Assembly: GCA_037893245.1 (NCBI GenBank) | Contig: JBAIAA010000784.1 | Coordinates: 1,054,001 to 1,118,000, forward strand | DNA: 64,000 nt | Direction of reading: 5' to 3' | Source of the DNA: Crossaster papposus | Taxonomy: Eukaryota > Echinodermata > Asteroidea > Velatida > Solasteridae | Shown: positions 1-37,019 of the stretch, piece after piece | How the letters are laid out: every line of letters begins with the position of its first letter | Numbering within the stretch: the first letter of the stretch is position 1 | Program-made: the position numbers and the translations under genes | Notes under the pieces: model-generated | Database searches by the model: none | What the model was told of the DNA's origin: nothing | The model's input: the letters and a program-made list of their open reading frames with translations, nothing else

Positions 1-71
1 TGATCACAACCTCGGTCTGCTCAGGATAATGTTGTATTTGATAGGGATTTCATTTTCATTAAAAATAGTTA

Positions 72-143
72 CGCAGAGTAGTGCAGCGGGAGCGTGATGG
101 GCCCATAGCCCAGAGGTCCGAGGACCAAAACCTCGCTTTGCTA
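72..143 (+). tRNA. tRNA-Met-like unit, type 1 (representative, probably decayed)
   Basis: Acceptor 5' strand CGCAGAG faces CTTTGCT, so position 1:72 is C:T. The anticodon is CAT but the loop reads CCCATAG, and the stem is ATGGG/CCCAG with a mismatch. The T-loop is ACCAAAA, not the initiator ATCGAAA. TTTTT follows at about 10 nt. It recurs once per 800-bp period (next at 872). Probably a pseudogene unit. Confidence 0.6.
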
Positions 144-245
144 ACTAGGTATTTTTGCTTCACTGCTATTCACATTTAATAAAAATTGTAGAATGTTTTT
201 AGAATGTCTGCTTTCATTTTGTTTGCATTTTCTAAATTTACATGA

Positions 246-317
246 GGCATAGTGGTGCAGTTGAAGCGTGCTGGGCCCATAACCCAGAGGTCCGAGGATC
301 GAAACCTCGCTCTGCTA
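246..317 (+). tRNA. tRNA-iMet-like (CAT), type 2 copy L1
   Basis: Reference type-2 unit of the left arm. Acceptor GGCATAG/CTCTGCT has G1:T72 and a T5:C68 mismatch. Anticodon stem CTGGG/CCCAG has the three G:C pairs expected of initiators, the loop is CCCATAA, and the T arm CGAGG-ATCGAAA-CCTCG has the initiator-type A54 and A60. The B-box-like GGATCGAAACC and an A-box-like stretch are present, with T5 7 nt after the 3' end. This copy alone has GGTGCAG rather than GGCGCAG in the D arm. Confidence 0.75.
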
Positions 318-469
318 ACAAGTTTTTGGTATGACATGAGGTACTCGACTCGGAGTGACAAAGTAGACACTTTCTTGGTCAGTACCCGAGAGTTTGGTTG
401 ACCACAACCTCGGTCTGCTCAGGATAATTATTTCCTTGAAAGTGATTTCATTTTCATTACAAATAGTTA

Positions 470-541
470 CGCAGAGTGGTGCAGTGCGATCGTGATGGGC
501 CCATAACCCAGAGGCCCGAGGACCAAAACCTCGCTCTGCTA
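470..541 (+). tRNA. tRNA-Met-like unit, type 3 full length (representative)
   Basis: CGCAGAG pairs with CTCTGCT except at position 1. The anticodon loop is CCCATAA (CAT) and the stem ATGGG/CCCAG has one mismatch. The T-loop is ACCAAAA here and ACCGAAA in many other copies. TTTTT lies about 10 nt downstream. Confidence 0.6.
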
Positions 542-645
542 AAGAGGTATTTTTGCTTCACTGTTATTCAAATTTAATAATTATTTTAGAATGTTTTTAG
601 AATGTCTGCTTTTATTTTGTTTGTTGTTTTTCTAAATTTACATGA

Positions 646-717
646 GGCATGGTGGCGCAGTGGAAGCTTGCTGGGCCTATAACCCAGAGTGCCGAGGATC
701 AAAACCTCGTTCTGCTG
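646..717 (+). tRNA. Initiator-tRNA-like unit, type 4, anticodon TAT (representative)
   Basis: The anticodon arm is CTGGG-CCTATAA-CCCAG, so position 34 is T and the anticodon reads TAT, formally decoding the isoleucine codon ATA. Acceptor GGCATGG against TTCTGCT leaves one mismatch and several G:T pairs. The discriminator is G because the 3' end reads CTGCTGCTA. T5 follows. Probably a non-functional derivative, but the TAT state is kept in nearly every type-4 copy in both arms. Confidence 0.55.
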
Positions 718-1045
718 CTAATAAGTTTTTGGTATGACTTGAAGTACTCGACTCAGAGTGACAAAGTAGACCCTTTCTTGGTCAGTAACCGAGAGTTCGG
801 ATGATCACAACCTCGGTCTGCTCAGGATAATTTTGTATTTGATAGGTTTTCATTTTCATTAAAAATAGTTACGCAGAGTAGTGCAGCGGGAGCGTGATGA
901 GCCCATAGCCCAGAGGTCCGAGGACCAAAACCTCGCTTTGCTAACTAGGTATTTTTGCTTCACTGCTATTCACATTTAATAAATATTGTAGAATGTTTTT
1001 AGAATGTCTGCTTTCATTTTGTTTGCATTTTCTAAATTTACATGA

Positions 1046-1117
1046 GGCATAGTGGCGCAGTTGAAGCGTGCTGGGCCCATAACCCAGAGGTCCGAGGATC
1101 GAAACCTCGCTCTGCTA
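1046..1117 (+). tRNA. tRNA-iMet-like (CAT), type 2 copy L2
   Basis: Consensus body with GGCGCAG D arm. An extra type3-type4 dimer (about 397 bp) is inserted between this copy and the next. Confidence 0.77.
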
Positions 1118-1269
1118 ACAAGTTTTTGGTATGACATGAGGTACTCGACTCGGAGTGACAAAGTAGACACTTTCTTGGTCAGTACCCGAGAGTTTGGTTG
1201 ACCACAACCTCGGTCTGCTCAGGATAATTATTTCCTTGAAAGTGATTTCATTTTCATTACAAATAGTTA

Positions 1270-1334
1270 CGCAGAGTGGTGCAGTGGGATCGTGATGGGC
1301 CCAGAGGCCCGAGGACCAAAACCTCGCTCTGCTA
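1270..1334 (+). pseudogene. Type-3 unit lacking the anticodon (7-nt deletion, representative)
   Basis: The unit is 65 nt long because ATAACCC (or an equivalent 7-nt phase) is missing: GATGGGCCC runs straight into AGAGGCCC. With no anticodon loop it cannot be a tRNA. The same deletion recurs in type-3 units near 4073, 4867, 5101, 5895, 6927, 7724, 11967, 13561, 14355, 16751, 19953, 20747 and 23143. Confidence 0.85.
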
Positions 1335-2242
1335 AAGAGGTATTTTTGCTTCACTGTTATTCAAATTTAATAATTATTTTAGAATGTTTTTAGAATGTCT
1401 GCTTTTATTTTGTTTGTTGTTTTTCTAAATTTACATGAGGCATGGTGGCGCAGTGGAAGCTTGCTGGGCCTATAACCCAGAGTGCCGAGGATCAAAACCT
1501 TGTTCTGCTGCTAATAAGTTTTTGGTATGACTTGAAGTACTCGACTCAGAGTGACAAAGTAGACCCTTTCTTGGTCAGTACCTGAGAGTTTGGTTGACCA
1601 CAACCTCGGTCTGCTCAGGATAATTATTTCCTTGAAAGTGATTTCATTTTCATTACAAATAGTTACGCAGAGTGGTGCAGTGTGATCGTGATGGGCCCAT
1701 AACCCAGAGGCCCGAGGACCGAAACCTCGCTCTGCTAAAGAGGTATTTTTGCTTCACTGTTATTCAAATTTAATAATTATTTTAGAATGTTTTTAGAATG
1801 TCTGCTTTTATTTTGTTTGTTGTTTTTCTAAATTTACATGAGGCATGGTGGCGCAGTGGAAGCTTGTTGGGCCTATAACCCAGAGTGCCGAGGATCAAAA
1901 CCTCGCTCTGCTGCTACTAAGTTTTTGGTATGACTTGAAGTACTCGACTCAGAGTGACAAAGTAGACCCTTTCTTGGTCAGTAACCGAGAGTTCGGATGA
2001 TCACAACCTCGGTCTGCTCAGGATAATGTTGTATTTGATAGGGATTTCATTTTCATTAAAAATAGTTACGCAGAGTAGTGCAGCGGGAGCGTGATGGGCC
2101 CATAGCCCAGAGGTCCGAGGACCAAAACCTCGCTTTGCTAACTAAGTACTTTTGCTTCACTGCTATTCACATTTAATAAATATTGTAGAATGTTTTTAGA
2201 ATGTCTGCTTTCATTTTGTTTGCATTTTCTAAATTTACATGC

Positions 2243-2314
2243 GGCATAGTGGCGCAGTTGAAGCGTGCTGGGCCCATAACCCAGAGGTCCGAGGATCGAA
2301 ACCTCGCTCTGCTA
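2243..2314 (+). tRNA. tRNA-iMet-like (CAT), type 2 copy L3
   Basis: Consensus body; the 5' flank reads ATGCGG instead of ATGAGG, a mark shared only with the copy 6,292 bp downstream at 8535. Confidence 0.77.
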
Positions 2315-3043
2315 ACAAGTTTTTGGTATGACATGAGGTACTCGACTCGGAGTGACAAAGTAGACACTTTCTTGGTCAGTACCCGAGAGTTTGGTTGACC
2401 ACAACATCGGTCTGCTCAGGATAATTATTTTCTTGAAAGTGATTTCATTTTCATTACAAATATTTACACAGAGTGGTGCAGTGGGATCGTGATGGGCCCA
2501 TAACCCAGAGGCCCGAGGACCGAAACCTCGCTCTGCTAAAGAGGTATTTTTGCTTCACTGTTATTCAAATTTAATAATTATTTTAGAATGTTTTTAGAAT
2601 GTCTGCTTTTATTTTGTTTGTTGTTTTTCAAAATTTACATGAGGCATGGTGGCGCAGTGGAAGCTTGCTGGGCCTATAACCCAGAGTGCCGAGGATCAAA
2701 ACCTCGTTCTGCTGCTAATAAGTTTTTGGTATGACTTGAAGTACTCGACTCAGAGTGACAAAGTAGACCCTTTCTTGGTCAGTAACCGAGAGTTCGGATG
2801 ATCACAACCTCGGTCTGCTCAGGATAATTTTGTATTTGATAGGGATTTCATTTTCGTTAAAAATAGTTACGCAGAGTAGTGCAGCGGGAGCGTGATGGGC
2901 CAATAGCCCAGAGGTCCGAGGACCAAAACCTCGCTTTGCTAACTAGGTATTTTTGCTTCACTGCTATTCACATTTAATAAATATTGTAGAATGTTTTGAG
3001 AATGTCTGCTTTCATTTTGTTTGCATTTTCTAAATTTACATGA

Positions 3044-3115
3044 GGCATAGTGGCGCAGTTGAAGCGTGCTGGGCCCATAACCCAGAGGTCCGAGGATCGA
3101 AACCTCGCTCTGCTA
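3044..3115 (+). tRNA. tRNA-iMet-like (CAT), type 2 copy L4
   Basis: Consensus body; the leader carries GTTTTGAGAATG, shared with the copies at 9336 and 10137. Confidence 0.77.
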
Positions 3116-3846
3116 ACAAGTTTTTGGTATGACATGAGGTACTCGACTCGGAGTGACAAAGTAGACACTTTCTTGGTCAGTACCCGAGAGTTTGGTTGAC
3201 CACAACCTCGGTCTGCTCAGGATAATTATTTCCTTGAAAGTGATTTCATTTTCATTACAAATAGTTACGCAGAGTGGTGCAGTGGGATCGTGATGGGCCC
3301 ATAACCCAGAGGCCCGAGGACCGAAAACTCGCTCTGCTAAAGAGGTATTTTTGCTTCACTGTTATTCAAATTTAATAATTATTTTAGAATGTTTTTAGAA
3401 TGTCTGCTTTTATTTTGTTTGTTGTTTTTCTAAATTTACATGAGGCATGGTGGCGCAGTGGAAGCTTGCTGGGCCTATAACCCAGAGTGCCGAGGATCAA
3501 AACCTTGTTCTGCTGCTAATAAGTTTTTGGTATGACTTGAAGTACTCGACTCAGAGTGACAAAGTAGACCCTTTCTTGGTCAGTAACCGAGAGTTCGGAT
3601 GATCACAACCTCGGTCTGCTCAGGATAATGTTGTATTTGATAGGGATTTCATTTTCATTAAAAAAAGAGTTACGCAGAGTAGTGCAGCGGGAGCGTGATG
3701 GGCCCATAGCCCAGAAGTCCGAGGACCAAAACCTCGCTTTGCTAACTAGGTATTTTTGCTTCACTGCTATTCACATTTAATAAATATTGTATAATGTTTT
3801 TAGAATGTCTGCTTTCATTTTGTTTGCATTTTCTAAATTTACATGA

Positions 3847-3918
3847 GGCATAGTGGCGCAGTTGAAGCGTGCTGGGCCCATAACCCAGAGGTCCGAGGAT
3901 CGAAACCTCGCTCTGCTA
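3847..3918 (+). tRNA. tRNA-iMet-like (CAT), type 2 copy L5
   Basis: Consensus body; leader variant TATAATG, and the type-1 unit before it has an A-rich insertion. Both marks recur 2,859 bp downstream at 6706. Confidence 0.77.
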
Positions 3919-4640
3919 ACAAGTTTTTGGTATGACATGAGGTACTCGACTCGGAGTGACAAAGTAGACACTTTCTTGGTCAGTACCCGAGAGTTTGGTT
4001 GACCACAACCTCGGTCTGCTCAGGATAATTATTTCCTTGAAAGTGATTTCATTTTCATTACAAATAGTTACGCAGAGTGGTGCAGTGGGATCGTGATGGG
4101 CCCAGAGGCCCGAGGACCAAAACCTCGCTCTGCTAAAGAGGTATTTTTGCTTCACTGTTATTCAAATTTAATAATTATTTTAGAATGTTTTTAGAATGTC
4201 TGCTTTTATTTTGTTTGTTGTTTTTCTAAATTTACATGAGGCATGGTGGCGCAGTGGAAGCGTGCTGGGCCTATAACCCAGAGTGCCGAGGATCAAAACC
4301 TTGTTCTGCTGCTAATAAGTTTTTGGTATGACTTGAAGTACTCGACTCAGAGTGACAAAGTAGACCCTTTCTTGGTCAGTAACCGAGGGTTCGGATGATC
4401 ACAACCTCGGTCTGCTCAGGATAATGTTGTATTTGATAGGGATTTCATTTTCATTAAAAATAGTTACGCAGAGTAGTGCAGCGGGAGCGTGATGGGCCCA
4501 TAGCCCAGAAGTCCGAGGACCAAAACCTCGCTTTGCTAACTAGGTATTTTTGCTTCACTGCTATTCACATTTAATAAATATTGTAGAATGTTTTTAGAAT
4601 GTCTGCTTTCATTTTGTTTGCATTTTCTAAATTTACATGA

Positions 4641-4712
4641 GGCATAGTGGCGCAGTTGAAGCGTGCTGGGCCCATAACCCAGAGGTCCGAGGATCGAAAC
4701 CTCGCTCTGCTA
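4641..4712 (+). tRNA. tRNA-iMet-like (CAT), type 2 copy L6
   Basis: Consensus body. It is followed by a partial duplication of about 234 bp in which an anticodon-less type-3 unit joins a second spacer. Confidence 0.77.
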
Positions 4713-5668
4713 ACAAGTTTTTGGTATGACATGAGGTACTCGACTCGGAGTGACAAAGTAGACACTTTCTTGGTCAGTACCCGAGAGTTTGGTTGACCAC
4801 AACCTCGGTCTGCTCAGGATAATTATTTCCTTGAAAGTGATTTCATTTTCATTACAAATAGTTACGCAGAGTGGTGCAGTGGGATCGTGATGGGCCCAGA
4901 GGCCCGAGGACCAAAACCTCGCTCTGCTAAAGAGGTTCTGCTGCTAATAAGTTTTTGGTATGACATGAGGTACTCGACTCGGAGTGACAAAGTAGACACT
5001 TTCTTGGTCAGTACCCGAGAGTTTGGTTGACCACAACCTCGGTCTGCTCAGGATAATTATTTCCTTGAAAGTGATTTCATTTTCATTACAAATAGTTACG
5101 CAGAGTGGTGCAGTGGGATCGTGATGGGCCCAGAGGCCCGAGGACCAAAACCTCGCTCTGCTAAAGAGGTATTTTTGCTTCACTGTTATTCAAATTTAAT
5201 AATTATTTTAGAATGTTTTTAGAATGTCTGCTTTTATTTTGTTTGTTGTTTTTCTAAATTTACATGAGGCATGGTGGCGCAGTGCAAGCGTGCTGGGCCT
5301 ATAACCCAGAGTGCCGAGGATCAAAACCTTGTTCTGCTGCTAATAAGTTTTTGGTATGACTTGAAGTACTCGACTCAGAGTGACAAAGTAGACCCTTTCT
5401 TGGTCAGTAACCGAGAGTTCGGATGATCACAACCTCGGTCTGCTCAGGATAATGTTGTATTTGATAGGGATTTCATTTTCATTAAAAATAGTTACGCAGA
5501 GTAGTGCAGCGGGAGCGTGATGGGCCCATAGCCCAGAAGTCCGAGGACCAAAACCTCGCTTTGCTAACTAGGTATTTTTGCTTCACTGCTATTCACATTT
5601 AATAAATATTGTAGAATGTTTTTAGAATGTCTGCTTTCATTTTGTTTGCATTTTCTAAATTTACATGA

Positions 5669-5740
5669 GGCATAGTGGCGCAGTTGAAGCGTGCTGGGCC
5701 CATAACCCAGAGGTCCGAGGATCGAAACCTCGCTCTGCTA
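5669..5740 (+). tRNA. tRNA-iMet-like (CAT), type 2 copy L7
   Basis: Consensus body, again followed by the type-3 fusion, but here the second type-3 unit is full length. Confidence 0.77.
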
Positions 5741-6705
5741 ACAAGTTTTTGGTATGACATGAGGTACTCGACTCGGAGTGACAAAGTAGACACTTTCTTG
5801 GTCAGTACCCGAGAGTTTGGTTGACCACAACCTCGGTCTGCTCAGGATAATTATTTCCTTGAAAGTGATTTCATTTTCATTACAAATAGTTACGCAGAGT
5901 GGTGCAGTGGGATCGTGATGGGCCCAGAGGCCCGAGGACCAAAACCTCGCTCTGCTAAAGAGGTTCTGCTGCTAATAAGTTTTTGGTATGACATGAGGTA
6001 CTCGACTCGGAGTGACAAAGTAGACACTTTCTTGGTCAGTACCCGAGAGTTTGGTTGACCACAACCTCGGTCTGCTCAGGATAATTATTTCCTTGAAAGT
6101 GATTTCATTTTCATTACAAATAGTTACGCAGAGTGGTGCAGTGGGATCGTGATGGGCCCATAACCCAGAGGCCCGAGGACCGAAACCTCGCTCTGCTAAA
6201 GAGGTATTTTTGCTTCACTGTTATTCAAATTTAATAATTATTTTAGAATGTTTTTAGAATGTCTGCTTTTATTTTGTTTGTTGTTTTTCTAAATTTACAT
6301 GAGGCATGGTGGCGCAGTGGAAGCTTGCTGGGCCTATAACCCAGAGTGCCGAGGATCAAAACCTTGTTCTGCTGCTAATAAGTTTTTGGTATGACTTGAA
6401 GTACTCGACTCAGAGTGACAAAGTAGACCCTTTCTTGGTCAGTAACCGAGAGTTCGGATGATCACAACCTCGGTCTGCTCAGGATAATGTTGTATTTGAT
6501 AGGGATTTCATTTTCATTAAAAAAAGAGTTACGCAGAGTAGTGCAGCGGGAGCGTGATGGGCCCATAGCCCAGAAGTCCGAGGACCAAAACCTCGCTTTG
6601 CTAACTAGGTATTTTTGCTTCACTGCTATTCACATTTAATAAATATTGTATAATGTTTTTAGAATGTCTGCTTTCATTTTGTTTGCATTTTCTAAATTTA
6701 CATGA

Positions 6706-6777
6706 GGCATAGTGGCGCAGTTGAAGCGTGCTGGGCCCATAACCCAGAGGTCCGAGGATCGAAACCTCGCTCTGCTA
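6706..6777 (+). tRNA. tRNA-iMet-like (CAT), type 2 copy L8
   Basis: Twin of the unit at 3847, with the same leader variant. Confidence 0.77.
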
Positions 6778-7499
6778 ACAAGTTTTTGGTATGACATGAG
6801 GTACTCGACTCGGAGTGACAAAGTAGACACTTTCTTGGTCAGTACCCGAGAGTTTGGTTGACCACAACCTCGGTCTGCTCAGGATAATTATTTCCTTGAA
6901 AGTGATTTCATTTTCATTACAAATAGTTACGCAGAGTGGTGCAGTGGGATCGTGATGGGCCCAGAGGCCCGAGGACCAAAACCTCGCTCTGCTAAAGAGG
7001 TATTTTTGCTTCACTGTTATTCAAATTTAATAATTATTTTAGAATGTTTTTAGAATGTCTGCTTTTATTTTGTTTGTTGTTTTTCTAAATTTACATGAGG
7101 CATGGTGGCGCAGTGGAAGCGTGCTGGGCCTATAACCCAGAGTGCCGAGGATCAAAACCTTGTTCTGCTGCTAATAAGTTTTTGGTATGACTTGAAGTAC
7201 TCGACTCAGAGTGACAAAGTAGACCCTTTCTTGGTCAGTAACCGAGAGTTCGGATGATCACAACCTCGGTCTGCTCAGGATAATGTTGTATTTGATAGGG
7301 ATTTCATTTTCATTAAAAATAGTTACGCAGAGTAGTGCAGCCGGAGCGTGATGGGCCCATAGCCCAGAAGTCCGAGGACCAAAACCTCGCTTTGCTAACT
7401 AGGTATTTTTGCTTCACTGCTATTCACATTTAATAAATATTGTAGAATGTTTTTAGAATGTCTGCTTTCATTTTGTTTGCATTTTCTAAATTTACATGA

Positions 7500-7571
7500 G
7501 GCATAGTGGCGCAGTTGAAGCGTGCTGGGCCCATAACCCAGAGGTCCGAGGATCGAAACCTCGCTCTGCTA
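7500..7571 (+). tRNA. tRNA-iMet-like (CAT), type 2 copy L9
   Basis: Consensus body; the step to the next copy is 1,035 bp because of a partial extra unit. Confidence 0.77.
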
Positions 7572-8534
7572 ACAAGTTTTTGGTATGACATGAGGTACTC
7601 GACTCGGAGTGACAAAGTAGACACTTTCTTGGTCAGTACCCGAGAGTTTGGTTGACCACAACCTCGGTCTGCTCAGGATAATTATTTCCTTGAAAGTGAT
7701 TTCATTTTCATTACAAATAGTTACGCAGAGTGGTGCAGTGGGATCGTGATGGGCCCAGAGGCCCGAGGACCAAAACCTCGCTCTGCTAAAGAGGTTCTGC
7801 TGCTAATAAGTTTTTGGTATGACATGAGGTACTCGACTCGGAGTGACAAAGTAGACACTTTCTTGGTCAGTACCCGAGAGTTTGGTTGACCACAACCTCG
7901 GTCTGCTCAGGATAATTATTTCCTTGAAAGTGATTTTATTTTCATTACAAATAGTTACGCAGAGTGGTGCAGTGTGATCGTGATGGGCCCATAACCCAGA
8001 GGCCCGAGGACCGAAACCTCGCTCTGCTAAAGAGGTATTTTTGCTTCACTGTTATTCAAATTTAATAATTATTTTAGAATGTTTTTAGAATGTCTGCTTT
8101 TATTTTGTTTGTTGTTTTTCTAAATTTACATGAGGCATGGTGGCGCAGTGGAAGCTTGTTGGGCCTATAACCCAGAGTGCCGAGGATCAAAACCTCGCTC
8201 TGCTGCTACTAAGTTTTTGGTATGACTTGAAGTACTCGACTCAGAGTGACAAAGTAGACCCTTTCTTGGTCAGTAACCGAGAGTTCGGATGATCACAACC
8301 TCGGTCTGCTCAGGATAATGTTGTATTTGATAGGGATTTCATTTTCATTAAAAATAGTTACGCAGAGTAGTGCAGCGGGAGCGTGATGGGCCCATAGCCC
8401 AGAGGTCCGAGGACCAAAACCTCGCTTTGCTAACTAAGTATTTTTGCTTCACTGCTATTCACATTTAATAAATATTGTAGAATGTTTTTAGAATGTCTGC
8501 TTTCATTTTGTTTGCATTTTCTAAATTTACATGC

Positions 8535-8606
8535 GGCATAGTGGCGCAGTTGAAGCGTGCTGGGCCCATAACCCAGAGGTCCGAGGATCGAAACCTCGCT
8601 CTGCTA
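8535..8606 (+). tRNA. tRNA-iMet-like (CAT), type 2 copy L10
   Basis: Twin of 2243 with the ATGCGG flank; marks a 6,292-bp spaced duplication inside the arm. Confidence 0.77.
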
Positions 8607-9335
8607 ACAAGTTTTTGGTATGACATGAGGTACTCGACTCGGAGTGACAAAGTAGACACTTTCTTGGTCAGTACCCGAGAGTTTGGTTGACCACAACATC
8701 GGTCTGCTCAGGATAATTATTTTCTTGAAAGTGATTTCATTTTCATTACAAATATTTACACAGAGTGGTGCAGTGGGATCGTGATGGGCCCATAACCCAG
8801 AGGCCCGAGGACCGAAACCTCGCTCTGCTAAAGAGGTATTTTTGCTTCACTGTTATTCAAATTTAATAATTATTTTAGAATGTTTTTAGAAAGTCTGCTT
8901 TTATTTTGTTTGTTGTTTTTCAAAATTTACATGAGGCATGGTGGCGCAGTGGAAGCTTGCTGGGCCTATAACCCAGAGTGCCGAGGATCAAAACCTCGTT
9001 CTGCTGCTAATAAGTTTTTGGTATGACTTGAAGTACTCGACTCAGAGTGACAAAGTAGACCCTTTCTTGGTCAGTAACCGAGAGTTCGGATGATCACAAC
9101 CTCGGTCTGCTCAGGATAATTTTGTATTTGATAGGGATTTCATTTTCGTTAAAAATAGTTACGCAGAGTAGTGCAGCGGGAGCGTGATGGGCCAATAGCC
9201 CAGAGGTCCGAGGACCAAAACCTCGCTTTGCTAACTAGGTATTTTTGCTTCACTGCTATTCACATTTAATAAATATTGTAGAATGTTTTGAGAATGTCTG
9301 CTTTCATTTTGTTTGCATTTTCTAAATTTACATGA

Positions 9336-9407
9336 GGCATAGTGGCGCAGTTGAAGCGTGCTGGGCCCATAACCCAGAGGTCCGAGGATCGAAACCTCGC
9401 TCTGCTA
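9336..9407 (+). tRNA. tRNA-iMet-like (CAT), type 2 copy L11
   Basis: Twin of 3044; the next 801 bp are an almost identical tandem copy. Confidence 0.77.
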
Positions 9408-10136
9408 ACAAGTTTTTGGTATGACATGAGGTACTCGACTCGGAGTGACAAAGTAGACACTTTCTTGGTCAGTACCCGAGAGTTTGGTTGACCACAACAT
9501 CGGTCTGCTCAGGATAATTATTTTCTTGAAAGTGATTTCATTTTCATTACAAATATTTACACAGAGTGGTGCAGTGGGATCGTGATGGGCCCATAACCCA
9601 GAGGCCCGAGGACCGAAACCTCGCTCTGCTAAAGAGGTATTTTTGCTTCACTGTTATTCAAATTTAATAATTATTTTAGAATGTTTTTAGAAAGTCTGCT
9701 TTTATTTTGTTTGTTGTTTTTCAAAATTTACATGAGGCATGGTGGCGCAGTGGAAGCTTGCTGGGCCTATAACCCAGAGTGCCGAGGATCAAAACCTCGT
9801 TCTGCTGCTAATAAGTTTTTGGTATGACTTGAAGTACTCGACTCAGAGTGACAAAGTAGACCCTTTCTTGGTCAGTAACCGAGAGTTCGGATGATCACAA
9901 CCTCGGTCTGCTCAGGATAATTTTGTATTTGATAGGGATTTCATTTTCGTTAAAAATAGTTACGCAGAGTAGTGCAGCGGGAGCGTGATGGGCCAATAGC
10001 CCAGAGGTCCGAGGACCAAAACCTCGCTTTGCTAACTAGGTATTTTTGCTTCACTGCTATTCACATTTAATAAATATTGTAGAATGTTTTGAGAATGTCT
10101 GCTTTCATTTTGTTTGCATTTTCTAAATTTACATGA

Positions 10137-10208
10137 GGCATAGTGGCGCAGTTGAAGCGTGCTGGGCCCATAACCCAGAGGTCCGAGGATCGAAACCTCG
10201 CTCTGCTA
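10137..10208 (+). tRNA. tRNA-iMet-like (CAT), type 2 copy L12
   Basis: Near-identical tandem neighbour of the previous copy, from one recent 801-bp duplication. Confidence 0.77.
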
Positions 10209-13410: not shown

Positions 13411-14132
13411 ACAAGTTTTTGGTATGACATGAGGTACTCGACTCGGAGTGACAAAGTAGACACTTTCTTGGTCAGTACCCGAGAGTTTGGTTGACCACAA
13501 CCTCGGTCTGCTCAGGATAATTATTTCCTTGAAAGTGATTTCATTTTCATTACAAATAGTTACGCAGAGTGGTGCAGTGGGATCGTGATGGGCCCAGAGG
13601 CCCGAGGACCAAAACCTCGCTCTGCTAAAGAGGTATTTTTGCTTCACTGTTATTCAAATTTAATAATTATTTTAGAATGTTTTTAGAATGTCTGCTTTTA
13701 TTTTGTTTGTTGTTTTTGTAAATTTACATGAGGCATGGTGGCGCAGTGGAAGCGTGCTGGGCCTATAACCCAGAGTGCCGAGGATCAAAACCTTGTTCTG
13801 CTGCTAATAAGTTTTTGGTATGACTTGAAGTACTCGACTCAGAGTGACAAAGTAGACCCTTTCTTGGTCAGTAACCGAGAGTTCGGATGATCACAACCTT
13901 GGTCTGCTCAGGATAATGTTGTATTTGATAGGGATTTCATTTTCATTAAAAATAGTTACGCAGAGTAGTGCAGCGGGAGCGTGATGGGCCCATAGCCCAG
14001 AAGTCCGAGGACCAAAACCTCGCTTTGCTAACTAGGTATTTTTGCTTCACTGCTATTCACATTTAATAAATATTGTAGAATGTTTTTAGAATGTCTGCTT
14101 TCATTTTGTTTGCATTTTCTAAATTTACATGA

Positions 14133-14204
14133 GGCATAGTGGCGCAGTTGAAGCGTGCTGGGCCCATAACCCAGAGGTCCGAGGATCGAAACCTCGCTCT
14201 GCTA
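14133..14204 (+). tRNA. tRNA-iMet-like (CAT), type 2 copy L17
   Basis: Consensus body; twin at 20525. Confidence 0.77.
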
Positions 14205-14926
14205 ACAAGTTTTTGGTATGACATGAGGTACTCGACTCGGAGTGACAAAGTAGACACTTTCTTGGTCAGTACCCGAGAGTTTGGTTGACCACAACCTCGG
14301 TCTGCTCAGGATAATTATTTCCTTGAAAGTGATTTCATTTTCATTACAAATAGTTACGCAGAGTGGTGCAGTGGGATCGTGATGGGCCCAGAGGCCCGAG
14401 GACCAAAACCTCGCTCTGCTAAAGAGGTATTTTTGCTTCACTGTTATTCAAATTTAATAATTATTTTAGAATGTTTTTAGAATGTCTGCTTTTATTTTGT
14501 TTGTTGTTTTTCTAAATTTACATGAGGCATGGTGGCGCAGTGGAAGCTTGCTGGGCCTATAACCCAGAGTGCCGAGGATCAAAACCTCGTTCTGCTGCTA
14601 ATACGTTGTTGGTATGACTTGAAGTACTCGACTCAGAGTGACAAAGTAGACCCTTTCTTGGTCAGTAACCGAGAGTTCGGATGATCACAACCTCGGTCTG
14701 CTCAGGATAATTTTGTATTTGATAGGGATTTCATTTTCATTAAAAATAGTTACGCAGAGTAGTGCAGCGGGAGCGTGATGGGCCCATAGCCCAGAGGTCC
14801 GAGGACCAAAACCTCGCTTTGCTAACTAGGTATTTTTGCTTCACTGCTATTCACATTTAATAAATATTGTAGAATGTTTTTAGAATGTCTGCTTTCATTT
14901 TGTTTGCATTTTCTAAATTTACATGA

Positions 14927-14998
14927 GGCATAATGGCGCAGTTGAAGCGTGCTGGGCCCATAACCCAGAGGTCCGAGGATCGAAACCTCGCTCTGCTA
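14927..14998 (+). tRNA. tRNA-iMet-like (CAT), type 2 copy L18
   Basis: The acceptor 5' strand ends GGCATAA, which breaks pair 7:66 and weakens the fold. Twin at 21319. Confidence 0.7.
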
Positions 14999-15727
14999 AC
15001 AAGTTTTTGGTATGACATGAGGTACTCGACTCGGAGTGACAAAGTAGACACTTTCTTGGTCAGTACCCGAGAGTTTGGTTGACCACAACCTCGGTCTGCT
15101 CAGGATAATTATTTCCTTGAAAGTGATTTCATTTTCATTACAAATAGTTACGCAGAGTGGTGCAGTGGGATCGTGATGGGCCCATAACCCAGAGGCCCGA
15201 GGACCGAAACGTCGCTCTGCTAAAGAGGTATTTTTGCTTCACTGTTATTCAAATTTAATAATTATTTAAGAATGTTTTTAGAATGTCTGCTTTTATTTTG
15301 TTTGTTGTTTTTCTAAATTTACATGAGGCATGGTGGCGCAGTGGAAGCTTGCTGGGCCTATAACCCAGAGTGCCGAGGATCAAAACCTTGTTCTGCTGCT
15401 AATAAGTTTTTGGTATGACTTGAAGTACTCGACTCAGAGTGACAAAGTAGACCCTTTCTTGGTCAGTAACCGAGAGTTCGGATGATCACAACCTCGGTCT
15501 GCTCAGGATAATGTTGTATTTGATAGGGATTTCATTTTCATTAAAAATAGTTACGCAGAGTAGTGCAGCGGGAGCGTGATGGGCCCATAGCCCAGAGGTC
15601 CGAGGACCAAAACCTCGCTTTGCTAACTAGGTATTTTTGCTTCACTGCTATTCACATTTAATAAATATTGTAGAATGTTTTTAGAATGTCTGCTTTCATT
15701 TTGTTTGCATTTTCTAAATTTACATGG

Positions 15728-15799
15728 GGCATAGTGGCGCAGTTGAAGCGTGCTGGGCCCATAATCCAGAGGTCCGAGGATTGAAACCTCGCTCTGCTA
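15728..15799 (+). tRNA. tRNA-iMet-like (CAT), type 2 copy L19 (diverged)
   Basis: The 3' anticodon stem reads TCCAG (G:T pair), the T-loop is ATTGAAA, and the trailer is GTTGTTGG, so the nearby T5 stop is lost. Twin at 22120. Confidence 0.62.
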
Positions 15800-16528
15800 A
15801 CAAGTTGTTGGTATGACATGAGGTACTCGACTCGGAGTGACAAAGTAGACACTTTCTTGGTCAGTACCCGAGAGTTTGGTTGACCACAACCTCGGTCTGC
15901 TCAGGATAATTATTTCCTTGAAAGTGATTTCATTTTCATTACAAATAGTTACGCAGAGTGGTGCAGTGGGATCGTGATGGGCCCATAACCCAGAGGCCCG
16001 AGGACCGAAACCTCGCTCTGCTAAAGAGGTATTTTTGCTTCACTGTTATTCAAATTTAATAATTATTTTAGAATGTTCTTAGAATGTCTGCTTTTATTTT
16101 GTTTGTTGTTTTTCAAAATTTACATGAGGCATGGTGGCGCAGTGGAAGCTTGCTGGGCCTATAACCCAGTGTGCCGAGGATCAAAACCTCGTTCTGCTGC
16201 TAATAAGTTTTTGGTATGACTTGAAGTACTCGACTCAGAGTGACAAAGTAGACCCTTTCTTGGTCAGTAACCGAGAGTTCGGATGATCACAACCTCGGTC
16301 TGCTCAGGATAATTTTGTATTTGATAGGGATTTCATTTTCATTAAAAATAGTTACGCAGAGTAGTGCAGCGGGAGCGTGATGGGCCCATAGCCCAGAGGT
16401 CCGAGGACCAAAACCTCGCTTTGCTAACTAGGTATTTTTGCTTCACTGCTATTCACATTTAATAAATATTGTAGAATGTTTTTAGAATGTCTGCTTTCAT
16501 TTTGTTTGCATTTTCTAAATTTACATGA

Positions 16529-16600
16529 GGCATAGTGGCGCAGTTGAAGCGTGCTGGGGCCATAACCCAGAGGTCCGAGGATCGAAACCTCGCTCTGCTA
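16529..16600 (+). tRNA. tRNA-iMet-like (CAT), type 2 copy L20
   Basis: Loop position 32 is changed, giving GCCATAA. The anticodon itself is kept. Twin at 22921. Confidence 0.7.
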
Positions 16601-17322
16601 ACAAGTTTTTGGTATGACATGAGGTACTCGACTCGGAGTGACAAAGTAGACACTTTCTTGGTCAGTACCCGAGAGTTTGGTTGACCACAACCTCGGTCTG
16701 CTCAGGATAATTATTTCCTTGAAAGTGATTTCATTTTCATTACAAATAGTTACGCAGAGTGGTGCAGTGGGATCGTGATGGGCCCAGAGGCCCGAGGACC
16801 AAAACCTCGCTCTGCTAAAGAGGTATTTTTGCTTCACTGTTATTCAAATTTAATAACTATTTTATAATGTTTTTAGAATGTCTGCTTTTATTTTGTTTGT
16901 TGTTTTTCTAAATTTACATGAGGCATGGTGGCGCAGTGGAAGCTTGCTGGGCCTATAACCCAGAGTGCCGAGGATCAAAACCTCGCTCTGCTGCTAATAA
17001 GTTTTGGGTATGACTTGAAGTACTCGACTCAGAGTGACAAAGTAGACCCTTTCTTGGTCAGTAACCGAGAGTTCGGATGATCACAACCTCGGTCTGCTCA
17101 GGATAATTTTGTATTTGATAGGGATTTCATTTTCATTAAAAATAGTTACGCATAGTGGTGCAGTGGAAGCGTGATGGGCCCATAACCCAGAGGTCCGAGG
17201 ACCAAAACCTCGCTTTGCTAACGAGGTATTTTTGTTTCACTGCTATTCACATTTAATAAATATTGTAGAATGTTTTTAGAATGTCTGCTTTCATTTTGTT
17301 TGCATTTTCTAAATTTACATGA

Positions 17323-17394
17323 GGCATAGTGGCGCAGTTGAAGCGTGCTGGGCCCATAACCCAGAGGTCCGAGGATCGAAACCTCGCTCTGCTA
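17323..17394 (+). tRNA. tRNA-iMet-like (CAT), type 2 copy L21
   Basis: Consensus body. The type-1 unit just upstream is atypical: it reads CGCATAG and has the CCCATAA loop. Confidence 0.77.
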
Positions 17395-18128
17395 ACAAGT
17401 TTTTGGTATGACATGAGGTACTCGACTCGGAGTGACAAAGTAGACACTTTCTTGGTCAGTACCCGAGAGTTTGGTTGACCACAACCTCGGTCTGCTCAGG
17501 ATAATTATTTCCTTGAAAGTGATTACATTTTCATTACAAATAGTTACGCAGAGTGGTGCAGTGGGATCGTGATGGGCCCATAACCCAGAGGCCCGAGGAC
17601 CGAAAACTCGCTCTGCTAAAGAGGTATTTTTGCTTCACTGTTATTCAAATTTAATAATTATTTTAGAATGTTTTTAGAATGTCTGCTTTTATTTTGTTTG
17701 TTGTTTTTCTAAATTTACATGAGGCATGGTGGCGCAGTGGAAGCTTGCTGGGCCTATAACCCAGAGTGCCGAGGATCAAAACCTCGTTCTGCTGCTAATA
17801 AGTTTTTGGTATGACTTGAAGTATGGTACTCGACTCAGAGTGACAAAGTAGACCCTTTCTTGGTCAGTAACCGAGAGTTCGGATGATCACAACCTCGGTC
17901 TGCTCAGGATAATTTTGTATTTGATAGGGATTTCATTTTCATTAAAAATAGTTACGCAGAGTAGTGCAGCGGGAGCGTGATGGGCCCATAGCCCAGAGGT
18001 CCGAGGACCAAAACCTCGCTTTGCTAACTAGGTATTTTTGCTTCACTGCTATTCACATTTAATAAATATTGTAGAATGTTTTTAGAATGTCTGCTTTCAT
18101 TTTGTTTGCATTTTCTAAATTTACATGA

Positions 18129-18200
18129 GGCATAGTGGCGCAGTTGAAGCGTGCTGGGCCCATAACCCAGAGGTCCGAGGATCGAAACCTCGCTCTGCTA
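18129..18200 (+). tRNA. tRNA-iMet-like (CAT), type 2 copy L22
   Basis: Twin of 10943 at a distance of 7,186 bp. Confidence 0.77.
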
Positions 18201-18929
18201 ACAAGTTTTTGGTATGACATGAGGTACTCGACTCGGAGTGACAAAGTAGACACTTTCTTGGTCAGTACCCGAGAGTTTGGTTGACCACAACCTCGGTCTG
18301 CACAGGATAATTATTTCCTTGAAAGTGATTTCATTTTCATTACAAATAGTTACGCAGAGTGGTGCAGTGGGATCGTGATGGGCCCATAACCCAGAGGCCC
18401 GAGGACCGAAACCTCGCTCTGCTAAAAAGGTATTTTTGCTTCACTGTTATTCAAATTTAATAATTATTTTAGAATGTTTTTAGAATGTCTGCTTTTATTT
18501 TGTTTGTTGTTTTTCTAAATTTACATGAGGCATGGTGGCGCAGTGGAAGCTTGCTGGGCCTATAACCCAGAGTGCCGAGGATCAAAACCCCGTTCTGCTG
18601 CTAATAAGTTTTTGGTATGACTTGAAGTACTCGACTCAGAGTGACAAAGTAGACCCTTTCTTGGTCAGTAACCGAGAGTTCGGATGATCACAACCTCGGT
18701 CTGCTCAGGATAATTTTGTATTTGATAGGGATTTCATTTTCATTAAAAATAGTTACGCAGAGTAGTGCAGCGGGAGCGTGATGGGCCCATAGCCCAGAGG
18801 TCCGAGGACCAAAACCTCGCTTTGCTAACTAGGTATTTTTGCTTCACTGCTATTCACATTTAATAAATATTGTAGAATGTTTTTAAAATGTCTGCTTTCA
18901 TTTTGTTTGCATTTTCTAAATTTACATGA

Positions 18930-19001
18930 GGCATAGTGGCGCAGTTGAAGCGTGCTGGGCCCATAACCCAGAGGTCCGAGGATCGAAACCTCGCTCTGCT
19001 A
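18930..19001 (+). tRNA. tRNA-iMet-like (CAT), type 2 copy L23
   Basis: Twin of 12538 at 6,392 bp; the change in offset from 7,186 bp marks the period lost in the second duplicate. Confidence 0.77.
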
Positions 19002-19730
19002 ACAAGTTTTTGGTATGACATGAGGTACTCGACTCGGAGTGACAAAGTAGACACTTTCTTGGTCAGTACCCGAGAGTTTGGTTGACCACAACCTCGGTCT
19101 GCTCAGGATAATTATTTCCTTGAAAGTGATTTCATTTTCATTACAAATAGTTACGCAGAGTGGTGCAGTGGGATCGTGATGGGCCCATAACCCAGAGGCC
19201 CGAGGACCGAAACCTCGCTCTGCTAAAGAGGTATTTTTGCTTCACTGTTATTCAAATTTAATAATTATTTTAGAATGTTTTTAGAATGTCTGCTTTTATT
19301 TTGTTTGTTGTTTTTCTAAATTTACATGAGGCATGGTGGCGCAGTGGAAGCTTGCTGGGCCTATAACCCAGAGTGCCGAGGATCAAAACCTTGTTCTGCT
19401 GCTAATAAGTTTTTGGTATGACTTGAAGTACTCGACTCAGAGTGACAAAGTAGACCCTTTCTTGGTCAGTAACCGAGAGTTCGGATGATCACAACCTCGG
19501 TCTGCTCAGGATAATTTTGTATTTGATAGGGATTTCATTTTCATTAAAAATAGTTACGCAGAGTAGTGCAGCGGGAGCGTGATGGGCCCATAGCCCAGAG
19601 GTCCGAGGACCAAAACCTCGCTTTGCTAACTAGGTATTTTTGCTTCACTGCTATTCACATTTAATACATATTGTAGAATGTTTTTAAAATGTCTGCTTTC
19701 ATTTTGTTTGCATTTTCTAAATTTACATGA

Positions 19731-19802
19731 GGCATAGTGGCGCAGTTGAAGCGTGCTGGGCCCATAACCCAGAGGTCCGAGGATCGAAACCTCGCTCTGC
19801 TA
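19731..19802 (+). tRNA. tRNA-iMet-like (CAT), type 2 copy L24
   Basis: Twin of 13339. Confidence 0.77.
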
Positions 19803-20524
19803 ACAAGTTTTTGGTATGACATGAGGTACTCGACTCGGAGTGACAAAGTAGACACTTTCTTGGTCAGTACCCGAGAGTTTGGTTGACCACAACCTCGGTC
19901 TGCTCAGGATAATTATTTCCTTGAAAGTGATTTCATTTTCATTACAAATAGTTACGCAGAGTGGTGCAGTGGGATCGTGATGGGCCCAGAGGCCCGAGGA
20001 CCAAAACCTCGCTCTGCTAAAGAGGTATTTTTGCTTCACTGTTATTCAAATTTAATAATTATTTTAGAATGTTTTTAGAATGTCTGCTTTTATTTTGTTT
20101 GTTGTTTTTGTAAATTTACATGAGGCATGGTGGCGCAGTGGAAGCGTGCTGGGCCTATAACCCAGAGTGCCGAGGATCAAAACCTTGTTCTGCTGCTAAT
20201 AAGTTTTTGGTATGACTTGAAGTACTCGACTCAGAGTGACAAAGTAGACCCTTTCTTGGTCAGTAACCGAGAGTTCGGATGATCACAACCTTGGTCTGCT
20301 CAGGATAATGTTGTATTTGATAGGGATTTCATTTTCATTAAAAATAGTTACGCAGAGTAGTGCAGCGGGAGCGTGATGGGCCCATAGCCCAGAAGTCCGA
20401 GGACCAAAACCTCGCTTTGCTAACTAGGTATTTTTGCTTCACTGCTATTCACATTTAATAAATATTGTAGAATGTTTTTAGAATGTCTGCTTTCATTTTG
20501 TTTGCATTTTCTAAATTTACATGA

Positions 20525-20596
20525 GGCATAGTGGCGCAGTTGAAGCGTGCTGGGCCCATAACCCAGAGGTCCGAGGATCGAAACCTCGCTCTGCTA
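20525..20596 (+). tRNA. tRNA-iMet-like (CAT), type 2 copy L25
   Basis: Twin of 14133. Confidence 0.77.
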
Positions 20597-21318
20597 ACAA
20601 GTTTTTGGTATGACATGAGGTACTCGACTCGGAGTGACAAAGTAGACACTTTCTTGGTCAGTACCCGAGAGTTTGGTTGACCACAACCTCGGTCTGCTCA
20701 GGATAATTATTTCCTTGAAAGTGATTTCATTTTCATTACAAATAGTTACGCAGAGTGGTGCAGTGGGATCGTGATGGGCCCAGAGGCCCGAGGACCAAAA
20801 CCTCGCTCTGCTAAAGAGGTATTTTTGCTTCACTGTTATTCAAATTTAATAATTATTTTAGAATGTTTTTAGAATGTCTGCTTTTATTTTGTTTGTTGTT
20901 TTTCTAAATTTACATGAGGCATGGTGGCGCAGTGGAAGCTTGCTGGGCCTATAACCCAGAGTGCCGAGGATCAAAACCTCGTTCTGCTGCTAATACGTTG
21001 TTGGTATGACTTGAAGTACTCGACTCAGAGTGACAAAGTAGACCCTTTCTTGGTCAGTAACCGAGAGTTCGGATGATCACAACCTCGGTCTGCTCAGGAT
21101 AATTTTGTATTTGATAGGGATTTCATTTTCATTAAAAATAGTTACGCAGAGTAGTGCAGCGGGAGCGTGATGGGCCCATAGCCCAGAGGTCCGAGGACCA
21201 AAACCTCGCTTTGCTAACTAGGTATTTTTGCTTCACTGCTATTCACATTTAATAAATATTGTAGAATGTTTTTAGAATGTCTGCTTTCATTTTGTTTGCA
21301 TTTTCTAAATTTACATGA

Positions 21319-21390
21319 GGCATAATGGCGCAGTTGAAGCGTGCTGGGCCCATAACCCAGAGGTCCGAGGATCGAAACCTCGCTCTGCTA
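21319..21390 (+). tRNA. tRNA-iMet-like (CAT), type 2 copy L26
   Basis: Twin of 14927 with the same broken 7:66 pair. Confidence 0.7.
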
Positions 21391-22119
21391 ACAAGTTTTT
21401 GGTATGACATGAGGTACTCGACTCGGAGTGACAAAGTAGACACTTTCTTGGTCAGTACCCGAGAGTTTGGTTGACCACAACCTCGGTCTGCTCAGGATAA
21501 TTATTTCCTTGAAAGTGATTTCATTTTCATTACAAATAGTTACGCAGAGTGGTGCAGTGGGATCGTGATGGGCCCATAACCCAGAGGCCCGAGGACCGAA
21601 ACGTCGCTCTGCTAAAGAGGTATTTTTGCTTCACTGTTATTCAAATTTAATAATTATTTAAGAATGTTTTTAGAATGTCTGCTTTTATTTTGTTTGTTGT
21701 TTTTCTAAATTTACATGAGGCATGGTGGCGCAGTGGAAGCTTGCTGGGCCTATAACCCAGAGTGCCGAGGATCAAAACCTTGTTCTGCTGCTAATAAGTT
21801 TTTGGTATGACTTGAAGTACTCGACTCAGAGTGACAAAGTAGACCCTTTCTTGGTCAGTAACCGAGAGTTCGGATGATCACAACCTCGGTCTGCTCAGGA
21901 TAATGTTGTATTTGATAGGGATTTCATTTTCATTAAAAATAGTTACGCAGAGTAGTGCAGCGGGAGCGTGATGGGCCCATAGCCCAGAGGTCCGAGGACC
22001 AAAACCTCGCTTTGCTAACTAGGTATTTTTGCTTCACTGCTATTCACATTTAATAAATATTGTAGAATGTTTTTAGAATGTCTGCTTTCATTTTGTTTGC
22101 ATTTTCTAAATTTACATGG

Positions 22120-22191
22120 GGCATAGTGGCGCAGTTGAAGCGTGCTGGGCCCATAATCCAGAGGTCCGAGGATTGAAACCTCGCTCTGCTA
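22120..22191 (+). tRNA. tRNA-iMet-like (CAT), type 2 copy L27 (diverged)
   Basis: Twin of 15728, again without the close T5 run. Confidence 0.62.
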
Positions 22192-22920
22192 ACAAGTTGT
22201 TGGTATGACATGAGGTACTCGACTCGGAGTGACAAAGTAGACACTTTCTTGGTCAGTACCCGAGAGTTTGGTTGACCACAACCTCGGTCTGCTCAGGATA
22301 ATTATTTCCTTGAAAGTGATTTCATTTTCATTACAAATAGTTACGCAGAGTGGTGCAGTGGGATCGTGATGGGCCCATAACCCAGAGGCCCGAGGACCGA
22401 AACCTCGCTCTGCTAAAGAGGTATTTTTGCTTCACTGTTATTCAAATTTAATAATTATTTTAGAATGTTCTTAGAATGTCTGCTTTTATTTTGTTTGTTG
22501 TTTTTCAAAATTTACATGAGGCATGGTGGCGCAGTGGAAGCTTGCTGGGCCTATAACCCAGTGTGCCGAGGATCAAAACCTCGTTCTGCTGCTAATAAGT
22601 TTTTGGTATGACTTGAAGTACTCGACTCAGAGTGACAAAGTAGACCCTTTCTTGGTCAGTAACCGAGAGTTCGGATGATCACAACCTCGGTCTGCTCAGG
22701 ATAATTTTGTATTTGATAGGGATTTCATTTTCATTAAAAATAGTTACGCAGAGTAGTGCAGCGGGAGCGTGATGGGCCCATAGCCCAGAGGTCCGAGGAC
22801 CAAAACCTCGCTTTGCTAACTAGGTATTTTTGCTTCACTGCTATTCACATTTAATAAATATTGTAGAATGTTTTTAGAATGTCTGCTTTCATTTTGTTTG
22901 CATTTTCTAAATTTACATGA

Positions 22921-22992
22921 GGCATAGTGGCGCAGTTGAAGCGTGCTGGGGCCATAACCCAGAGGTCCGAGGATCGAAACCTCGCTCTGCTA
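22921..22992 (+). tRNA. tRNA-iMet-like (CAT), type 2 copy L28
   Basis: Twin of 16529 with the GCCATAA loop. Confidence 0.7.
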
Positions 22993-23714
22993 ACAAGTTT
23001 TTGGTATGACATGAGGTACTCGACTCGGAGTGACAAAGTAGACACTTTCTTGGTCAGTACCCGAGAGTTTGGTTGACCACAACCTCGGTCTGCTCAGGAT
23101 AATTATTTCCTTGAAAGTGATTTCATTTTCATTACAAATAGTTACGCAGAGTGGTGCAGTGGGATCGTGATGGGCCCAGAGGCCCGAGGACCAAAACCTC
23201 GCTCTGCTAAAGAGGTATTTTTGCTTCACTGTTATTCAAATTTAATAACTATTTTATAATGTTTTTAGAATGTCTGCTTTTATTTTGTTTGTTGTTTTTC
23301 TAAATTTACATGAGGCATGGTGGCGCAGTGGAAGCTTGCTGGGCCTATAACCCAGAGTGCCGAGGATCAAAACCTCGCTCTGCTGCTAATAAGTTTTGGG
23401 TATGACTTGAAGTACTCGACTCAGAGTGACAAAGTAGACCCTTTCTTGGTCAGTAACCGAGAGTTCGGATGATCACAACCTCGGTCTGCTCAGGATAATT
23501 TTGTATTTGATAGGGATTTCATTTTCATTAAAAATAGTTACGCATAGTGGTGCAGTGGAAGCGTGATGGGCCCATAACCCAGAGGTCCGAGGACCAAAAC
23601 CTCGCTTTGCTAACGAGGTATTTTTGTTTCACTGCTATTCACATTTAATAAATATTGTAGAATGTTTTTAGAATGTCTGCTTTCATTTTGTTTGCATTTT
23701 CTAAATTTACATGA

Positions 23715-23786
23715 GGCATAGTGGCGCAGTTGAAGCGTGCTGGGCCCATAACCCAGAGGTCCGAGGATCGAAACCTCGCTCTGCTA
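23715..23786 (+). tRNA. tRNA-iMet-like (CAT), type 2 copy L29
   Basis: Twin of 17323 and the last regular period of the left arm. The units beyond it diverge. Confidence 0.77.
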
Positions 23787-23938
23787 ACAAGTTTTTGGTA
23801 TGACATGAGGTACTCGACTCGGAGTGACAAAGTAGACACTTTCTTGGTCAGTACCCGAGAGTTTGGTTGACCACAACCTCGGTCTGCTCAGGATAATTAT
23901 TTCCTTGAAAGTGATTTCATTTTCATTAAAAATAGGTA

Positions 23939-24010
23939 CGCAGAGGGGTGCAGTGGGAGCGTGCTGGGCCTATAACCCAGAGGTTCGAGGACCAAATCTT
24001 TGCTCTGCTG
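23939..24010 (+). tRNA. Edge unit, type-3-like with TAT anticodon
   Basis: The penultimate unit. Its anticodon arm is CTGGG-CCTATAA-CCCAG in a CGCAGAG (type 1/3) acceptor context, and the T arm is CGAGG-ACCAAAT-CTTTG. It combines marks of types 3 and 4, as expected at an array edge that escapes homogenisation. Confidence 0.5.
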
Positions 24011-24112
24011 AAGAGGTATTTTTGCTTCACTGTTATTCAAATTTTATAAAATTTTTAGAATGTTTTTAGAATGTCTGTTTTCATTTTGTTTGCTGTTTCT
24101 CAAATTACATGA

Positions 24113-24184
24113 AGCATAGTGGTGCAGTGGGAGCGTGCTGGGCCCATAACCCAGAGGTACAAGGATCAAAACCTCGCTCTGCTA
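24113..24184 (+). tRNA. tRNA-iMet-like (CAT), last left-arm unit with A1:T72
   Basis: The acceptor is AGCATAG/CTCTGCT, so position 1:72 is A:T, the eukaryotic initiator identity pair; one acceptor mismatch (5:68) remains. The anticodon arm is CTGGG-CCCATAA-CCCAG. The T stem has one A:C mismatch and the loop is ATCAAAA. No T4-T5 run follows closely, since the array ends at GCTATCGCC. Confidence 0.7.
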
Positions 24185-26215: not shown

Positions 26216-26219
26216 GGTA

Positions 26220-36927: not shown

Positions 36928-37019
36928 GACGGTTGTAGCTGAGGAGAGGTATACCCACTCAATGAAACACAATGATAATTCAGTCTGAAGCTCATGTGCG
37001 GACAACACACTGGTAGTTT

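Follow-up and report, generated by a model that had tools for sequence, protein, structure and literature searches.

Two tandem arrays built from initiator tRNA-Met sequence lie in a 64,000-nucleotide stretch of the genome of the sea star Crossaster papposus (GenBank assembly GCA_037893245.1, contig JBAIAA010000784.1, positions 1,054,001 to 1,118,000 of the forward strand; here, the window). We report that the arrays are probably a higher-order satellite of initiator tRNA-Met pseudogenes, descended from a gene cluster, now evolving neutrally and supplying no initiator tRNA. Each cassette of ~400 bp holds three modules (A, B, and C) derived from initiator tRNA-Met; cassettes of two types alternate, blocks of them have been duplicated, each array has been homogenized on its own, and the tRNA bodies differ between types as much as the spacers do. 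The arrays are as follows.

1-24184, forward strand: array 1, initiator-tRNA-derived modules in B-C-A cassettes arranged head to tail, truncated by the start of the window
47422-62819, reverse strand: array 2, the same cassettes in inverted orientation, homogenized separately

Array organization

ARAGORN called 44 tRNA genes in the window, 40 Met-CAT and 4 Ile-TAT. The forward strand has 28 of them, at 246-24184, comprising all 4 Ile-TAT genes and 24 Met-CAT genes; the other 16, all tRNA-Met, are on the reverse strand at 47514-61434. Rfam returned 143 matches at the gathering score, 142 of them to tRNA (best, 50.6 bits). Tandem Repeats Finder (TRF) gave a period of 403 bp across 1-7789 and of 398 bp across 7796-24183 in array 1; like those of a satellite, the units run head to tail, with TRF periods of 398 to 403 bp spanning 24.2 kb (array 1) and 15.4 kb (array 2).

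The window was scanned on both strands by full-length alignment with one 72-nt module (threshold, 14). This identified 290 modules (182 on the forward strand, 108 on the reverse strand), every one within the two arrays: 102 A (62 in array 1 and 40 in array 2), 96 B (59 and 37), and 92 C (61 and 31). Array 1 ends on the right with a B-like module. Nothing outside the arrays reached the threshold of 14 on either strand, including in the 23.2 kb between them, and the arrays are therefore not due to chance. An earlier reading of the letters (the sequence-only reading) had placed a one-strand array at 1-24184, which holds for array 1 but leaves out the inverted second array on the reverse strand.

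The layout is illustrated by one ~800-bp repeat of array 1.

2243-3043, forward strand: example of the higher-order repeat, 801 bp long, with six modules in two cassettes
2243-2314, forward strand: module B of the type 2 cassette, with anticodon CAT, a box B of initiator type, T instead of G18, and an acceptor-stem mismatch
2346-2417, forward strand: module C of the type 2 cassette (ends approximate), strongly decayed, with no ARAGORN or Rfam call
2467-2538, forward strand: module A of the type 2 cassette
2643-2714, forward strand: module B of the type 1 cassette, with anticodon TAT and a further stem mismatch
2749-2820, forward strand: module C of the type 1 cassette
2870-2941, forward strand: module A of the type 1 cassette

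The sequence-only reading described a period of ~800 bp with four recognizable initiator-like monomers, repeated about 29 times. The repeat number was borne out by the B modules of array 1 (29 each of types 1 and 2, plus 1 untyped edge copy), and the four monomers correspond to modules A and B in a pair of cassettes; the count was nonetheless incomplete, because each cassette contains a third, decayed module, C, which brings the period to six. The two consensus forms of C were identical to the A/B majority at 45 and 50 of 72 positions, gap-free over the whole tRNA, with a similarity score reached by 0 of 5,000 dinucleotide shuffles for either form. They kept 12 and 13 of the 21 cloverleaf pairs; neither a box A nor a box B pattern was found in any of 92 C modules, nor any of five initiator hallmarks (defined below) in the 54 of 72 nt. 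A C-module pattern had no match in either of two contig collections searched (genome_contigs and viral_contigs). Among 94 B-to-B intervals, 80 were complete B-C-A cassettes, 6 carried an extra C-A, and 8 had no C above threshold; in array 2, 8 B-to-A intervals were of normal length without a C above threshold.

The 80 complete cassettes fell into two types (44 and 36 copies) that were 10.5% apart, with 2.6% and 2.3% divergence within type. When cassettes were typed by their B module (with one edge copy of array 1 left untyped), the type switched between neighbors at 56 of 57 steps in array 1 and at 33 of 36 in array 2. Diverged monomer types thus recur in fixed order and as blocks (lags, 801 and 6392 bp), as in a higher-order repeat; the strongest lags of array 1 were 6392 and 801 bp, and those of array 2 were 2620, 398, 1598, and 799 bp. 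All four Ile-TAT genes called by ARAGORN were rejected as such, being B modules of type 1 cassettes in which CAT has changed to TAT. Three further features mark the history of array 1.

12036-17524, forward strand: block of 5489 bp, with an identical second copy at 18428 (a lag of 6392 bp)
4707-5170, forward strand: internal duplication of 234 bp in two copies (C-A part of the cassette)
23715-24184, forward strand: diverged edge of array 1, its last complete cassette 5.5% from the type consensus

The exact 5489-bp repeat could also be an assembly error, and the 234-bp duplication is a sign of unequal exchange. Homogenization was array specific: across the 80 complete cassettes, within-type divergence was 1.56 to 2.49% inside arrays and 3.08 to 3.52% between them, and no exact match of 200 bp was common to both arrays. 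The last complete cassette of array 1 (5.5%) stood apart from the other 54 (0 to 4.2% from their type consensus), and in array 2 the second innermost cassette was 5.8% from its consensus, compared with 1.3 to 4.2% for the other 24. On these distances, the edge effect is clear in array 1 and partial in array 2. The overall pattern would be expected of unequal crossing-over.

Initiator origin and probable loss of tRNA function

All 290 modules (102 A, 96 B, and 92 C) matched the human initiator tRNA-Met better than the human elongator tRNA-Met. A hierarchy like that of alpha satellite, built from one tRNA species, had been proposed from the letters and was upheld by this result together with the dimeric higher-order repeat that the cassettes form. 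A CAT anticodon and G18G19 are among the criteria for an initiator tRNA. Others, given in the excerpted text of PMC4425011, are A1-U72, three G-C pairs in the anticodon stem, and A54/A60 in the T loop; the human reference sequences were those excerpted from PMC8216282. The T loop ATCGAAA (A54, A60) was present in 47 of 95 B modules and 3 of 88 A modules. The same excerpt of PMC4425011 also gives A50-U64 and U51-A63 for the initiator; the common modules have G-C and A-U at these positions, which may, to judge from the sequence, represent loss or an invertebrate form of initiator tRNA.

Five hallmarks (A1-U72, CAT, G18G19, T loop ATCGAAA, and GGG:CCC) were tested on the 237 modules of 72 nt; 53 modules of other lengths (14 A, 1 B, and 38 C) were omitted, and the 14 omitted A modules lack part of the anticodon arm. 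None of the 237 had all five, and the human initiator, used as a control, had five of five. The 11 best modules each lacked a single hallmark: 7 carry T instead of G18, 3 have C1 opposite T72, and 1 edge copy has the T loop ATCAAAA. Lesions were class-wide, with T for G18 in 49/95 and anticodon TAT in 46/96 B modules, and with C1 opposite T72 in 88/88 and C at T-loop position 55 in 85/88 A modules.

Divergence pointed the same way. Types 1 and 2 differed at 14 of 144 tRNA sites (A and B bodies) and at 19 of 182 spacer sites (P = 0.86); the slower divergence of bodies than of spacers that would mark a cluster of genes was not seen between cassette types. Within types, variant events per site were at least as common in stems (36/168) and in loops (30/120) as in spacers (67/366). 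Minimum-energy folds of six single modules lay inside the range of shuffled sequences (z = −0.37 to −1.62, computed without a human control). We infer that the array today is not a source of initiator tRNA and that it evolves like an ordinary satellite (heterochromatin-like, and structural at most).

Proposed history

The arrays probably arose stepwise. At the outset, selection would have acted on a small group of clustered initiator tRNA genes, three in number (A, B, and C), with bodies kept alike while spacers diverged until they were unrelated. The tRNA function would then have been lost, with a different lesion fixed in each member of the cluster. The whole ~400-bp cassette would next have been amplified in tandem and have split into the two alternating types, and finally reamplification as ~800-bp dimers, and then as kilobase blocks, would have proceeded by unequal crossing-over, each array being homogenized alone. 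Both the early selected phase and unequal crossing-over as the mechanism are conclusions that we draw from the pattern.

For the first step, A and B bodies were identical at 55 of 72 positions in type 1 and at 62 of 72 in type 2, and none of six whole-spacer comparisons scored above shuffles. If A and B descend from one gene duplicated with its flank, selection held the bodies while the flanks drifted; once the cassette had formed and doubled, bodies and spacers drifted alike. None of the 198 A and B modules was followed by CCA at its 3′ end, and they therefore resemble gene copies more than products of direct retroposition of mature tRNA.

Several results weigh against this history or against present neutrality. 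The anticodon-stem pairs GGG:CCC were kept in 93/95 B and 87/88 A modules. The best of 12 comparisons of 30-nt flanks was reached by 93 of 2,000 shuffles, leaving room for a weak similarity of flanks, and independent insertions or gene conversion could mimic an early selected phase. Module C, which has decayed furthest, shows less variation than any other part of the cassette when copies of one type are compared (16/144 type-sites, against 122/657 elsewhere; P = 0.038, uncorrected, with copies that are not independent). This would not be expected under neutrality and may be due to chance, to recent spread, or to the binding of a protein at the site. Edge divergence in array 2 is uneven (innermost cassette, 3.5%; three others, 4.2%; outermost complete cassette, 2.5%).

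Stem changes also kept pairing more often than expected (15 of 31, against 9.8 under a base-specific neutral null; P = 0.012). This null replaced a cruder one based on the transition rates of the AT-rich spacers, under which the excess was stronger (expected fraction, 0.19; P printed as 0.000); an excess was thus found under both. A strand-symmetric count was not significant (11 C>T changes that kept a pair against 6 G>A changes that broke one; P = 0.33), and a few copies carry a compensatory change of the T-stem pairing GAGG/CCTC to GAAG/CTTC. Together these hint at some constraint on the fold or at exchange among modules; because the events share ancestry, we read the excess of pair-keeping changes as a hint of past constraint or module exchange.

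Alternative explanations

The first alternative is a platform for RNA polymerase III (Pol III) and TFIIIC, in which B modules with intact internal promoters would serve as an insulator, a boundary, or a source of short initiator-like RNA. Box A and an exact initiator box B co-occurred in 43 of 290 modules, and in array 1 a T5 run lay 5 nt downstream of all 27 promoter-bearing modules. More generally, a run of at least four T's was found within 30 nt of 99/102 A and 79/96 B modules (C, 31/92), against a background per 30-nt stretch of 0.15 to 0.17 in the middle region and 0.38 on the forward strand of array 1; such runs are shared by descent and so amount to few independent observations, which makes the count weak. 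In array 2, the T5 run was present in just 5 of 16 promoter-bearing modules; the box B pattern GG.TC[AG]A..CC was absent from all 102 A modules and all 92 C modules, and the tRNA bodies are not slower evolving than the spacers. As far as motifs can tell, array 1 may be transcribed or bound by TFIIIC and array 2 may have lost this ability, and we regard a Pol III/TFIIIC platform as possible, if unlikely.

Next is a satellite derived from a short interspersed nuclear element (SINE), by which a tRNA-headed or multiheaded SINE would have been amplified in tandem as in squamate reptiles. Satellites from SINEs with tRNA heads are on record (excerpted text of PMC10702118), and the modules here are tRNA derived, with spacers that show no match to one another. 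The usual layout of a SINE, as generally known, is unlike three modules of one tRNA with unrelated spacers, and no dispersed module was found outside the arrays within the 64-kb window, including the 23.2 kb that separates them; a SINE origin is accordingly doubtful.

In a Pol III-coupled satellite, a promoter-bearing B module about once per 800 bp would recruit TFIIIC and Pol III, short initiator-like RNAs or fragments would mark or organize this chromosome domain, and C, little variable yet unlike a tRNA, would act as a protein-bound box. The parallel for C is alpha satellite, in which monomers with and without a CENP-B box alternate. We give this reading little credence.

Least probable is a reservoir of initiator tRNA genes that still work, comparable to the large clusters of tRNA genes in some animals: the 40 Met-CAT calls among 44, the best Rfam score of 50.6 bits, up to 20 of 21 standard cloverleaf pairs, and the mild excess of pair-keeping changes speak for it, but it is disfavored because none of the 237 modules keeps all five hallmarks (the best 11 stop at four) and because bodies diverge like spacers. 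The sequence-only reading had held that the sequence does not choose among reservoir, structural array, and insulator; this no longer applies to the reservoir and still applies to the choice between a structural role and a TFIIIC/insulator role.

Comparison with known repeats

A satellite of initiator tRNA pseudogenes, as preferred here, has partial counterparts elsewhere. Primate alpha satellite likewise consists of diverged monomers in fixed order, with the whole unit repeated at higher identity; it differs from these arrays in sequence, unit length, and origin. The repeat unit of OAX (satellite I) of Xenopus is 741 bp, and its transcription in oocytes is reportedly the subject given in the title of a 1983 paper. 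Entamoeba tRNA arrays consist of units of working tRNA genes; by the hallmark test, no working gene of that kind was found among the modules of 72 nt here. Benslimane et al. are said to have proposed, in 1986, that plant tandem repeats descend from a tRNA gene ancestor.

As far as excerpts of the sources extend, tRNA-containing repeats of several kinds can be compared. The PolIII/TAN (Hirt) family of the newt Cynops, for which the original paper is Nagahashi et al. (1991), is a tandem family of ~360 nt with tRNA-related sequence (PMC10702118) and resembles the present arrays as a tandem repeat of a few hundred base pairs with such sequence. It has one tRNA-related sequence per unit (tRNA-Glu, according to a cited title), which is transcribed in vitro, whereas the arrays here have three initiator modules per cassette, two alternating types, and kilobase super-repeats. 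OAX shares with them a long tandem repeat whose unit of several hundred base pairs includes a tRNA-derived segment (PMC10702118, PMC6947457), but that segment is single and central, compared with six per ~800 bp here, all initiator. In squamates, tRNA-related SINEs have given rise to homogenized tandem arrays with dimeric and trimeric monomer patterns (PMC10702118); the source SINE there has dispersed copies, while here the window has none and each cassette has three tRNA modules. Rana/polIII and Hy/polIII are other tandem repeats of tRNA type, with the tRNA origin of Hy/polIII doubted (PMC10702118).

Large clusters of tRNA genes occur in Nematostella, zebrafish, and stickleback, and the tRNA arrays of Entamoeba are mentioned alongside (excerpt of PMC2888827). 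Such clusters resemble the present arrays in having many adjacent copies of tRNA genes or pseudogenes, mostly in parallel; those of Nematostella and zebrafish are mostly of mixed tRNA species (PMC2888827), in contrast to the one species here, with no hallmark-intact copy.

With tRNA-related sequence inside the tandem unit (three modules per cassette), the arrays qualify as a tRNA-derived satellite. Satellites that contain tRNA sequence are already known, and the three-initiator cassette with its dimeric form is a variant of them. No initiator-tRNA satellite was named among the literature matches listed, which come from partial texts, and an earlier report may exist; the excerpts of PMC10702118 and PMC2888827 do not describe a three-initiator-module cassette with a dimeric higher-order form.

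The arrays are an unusually legible record of the passage from gene cluster to satellite, in that the source gene is recognizable base by base and the sequence of events (from gene cluster through loss, cassette, and dimer to blocks) can be read from nested divergences. Earlier constraint and later neutrality are separately testable in them. They are also a warning for annotation: the 44 automatic tRNA calls in the window are most likely pseudogenes and would inflate the counts of initiator and Ile-TAT genes.

Other features of the window

The two arrays flank 23.2 kb that contain a receptor gene. This and other features in the window are listed below.

37017-38093: receptor of the 7tm_1 (rhodopsin-type) family, uninterrupted frame of 358 amino acids (E = 5.6e-24)
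62880-64000: satellite of 43 bp, ~26 copies with 97% matches (TRF), starting ~60 bp past array 2 and running to the end of the window
25586-26224: 18S rRNA-like stretch (Rfam, 173.5 bits; model positions 1-1831 within 639 bp)
41086-44961: element like a DNA transposon, having terminal inverted repeats of 59 bp (95%) and subterminal repeats that resemble AGCGTATG (TRF)
29953-32010: frame of 685 amino acids that weakly matches a tyrosine recombinase (PF00589; E = 6e-4, under the curated cutoff)
45458-45994: retroelement piece with an H2C2 integrase zinc-binding domain
24745-25381, 26910-27308, 28424-28801, and 39424-39911: four inverted-repeat elements with arms or palindromes 65 to 94% identical

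The 18S rRNA-like stretch at 25586-26224 is probably a heavily deleted 18S pseudogene, and the four inverted-repeat elements are probably nonautonomous DNA transposons. A frame inside the element at 41086-44961 resembles a Harbinger transposase by eye only, without a Pfam match. The frame at 29953-32010 is one that we take to be possibly Crypton-like. Stretches at 28.41 to 28.99 kb (28410-28990) match 46.57 to 46.83 kb, and 28410-28990 may be a solo terminal repeat of the retroelement at 45458-45994.

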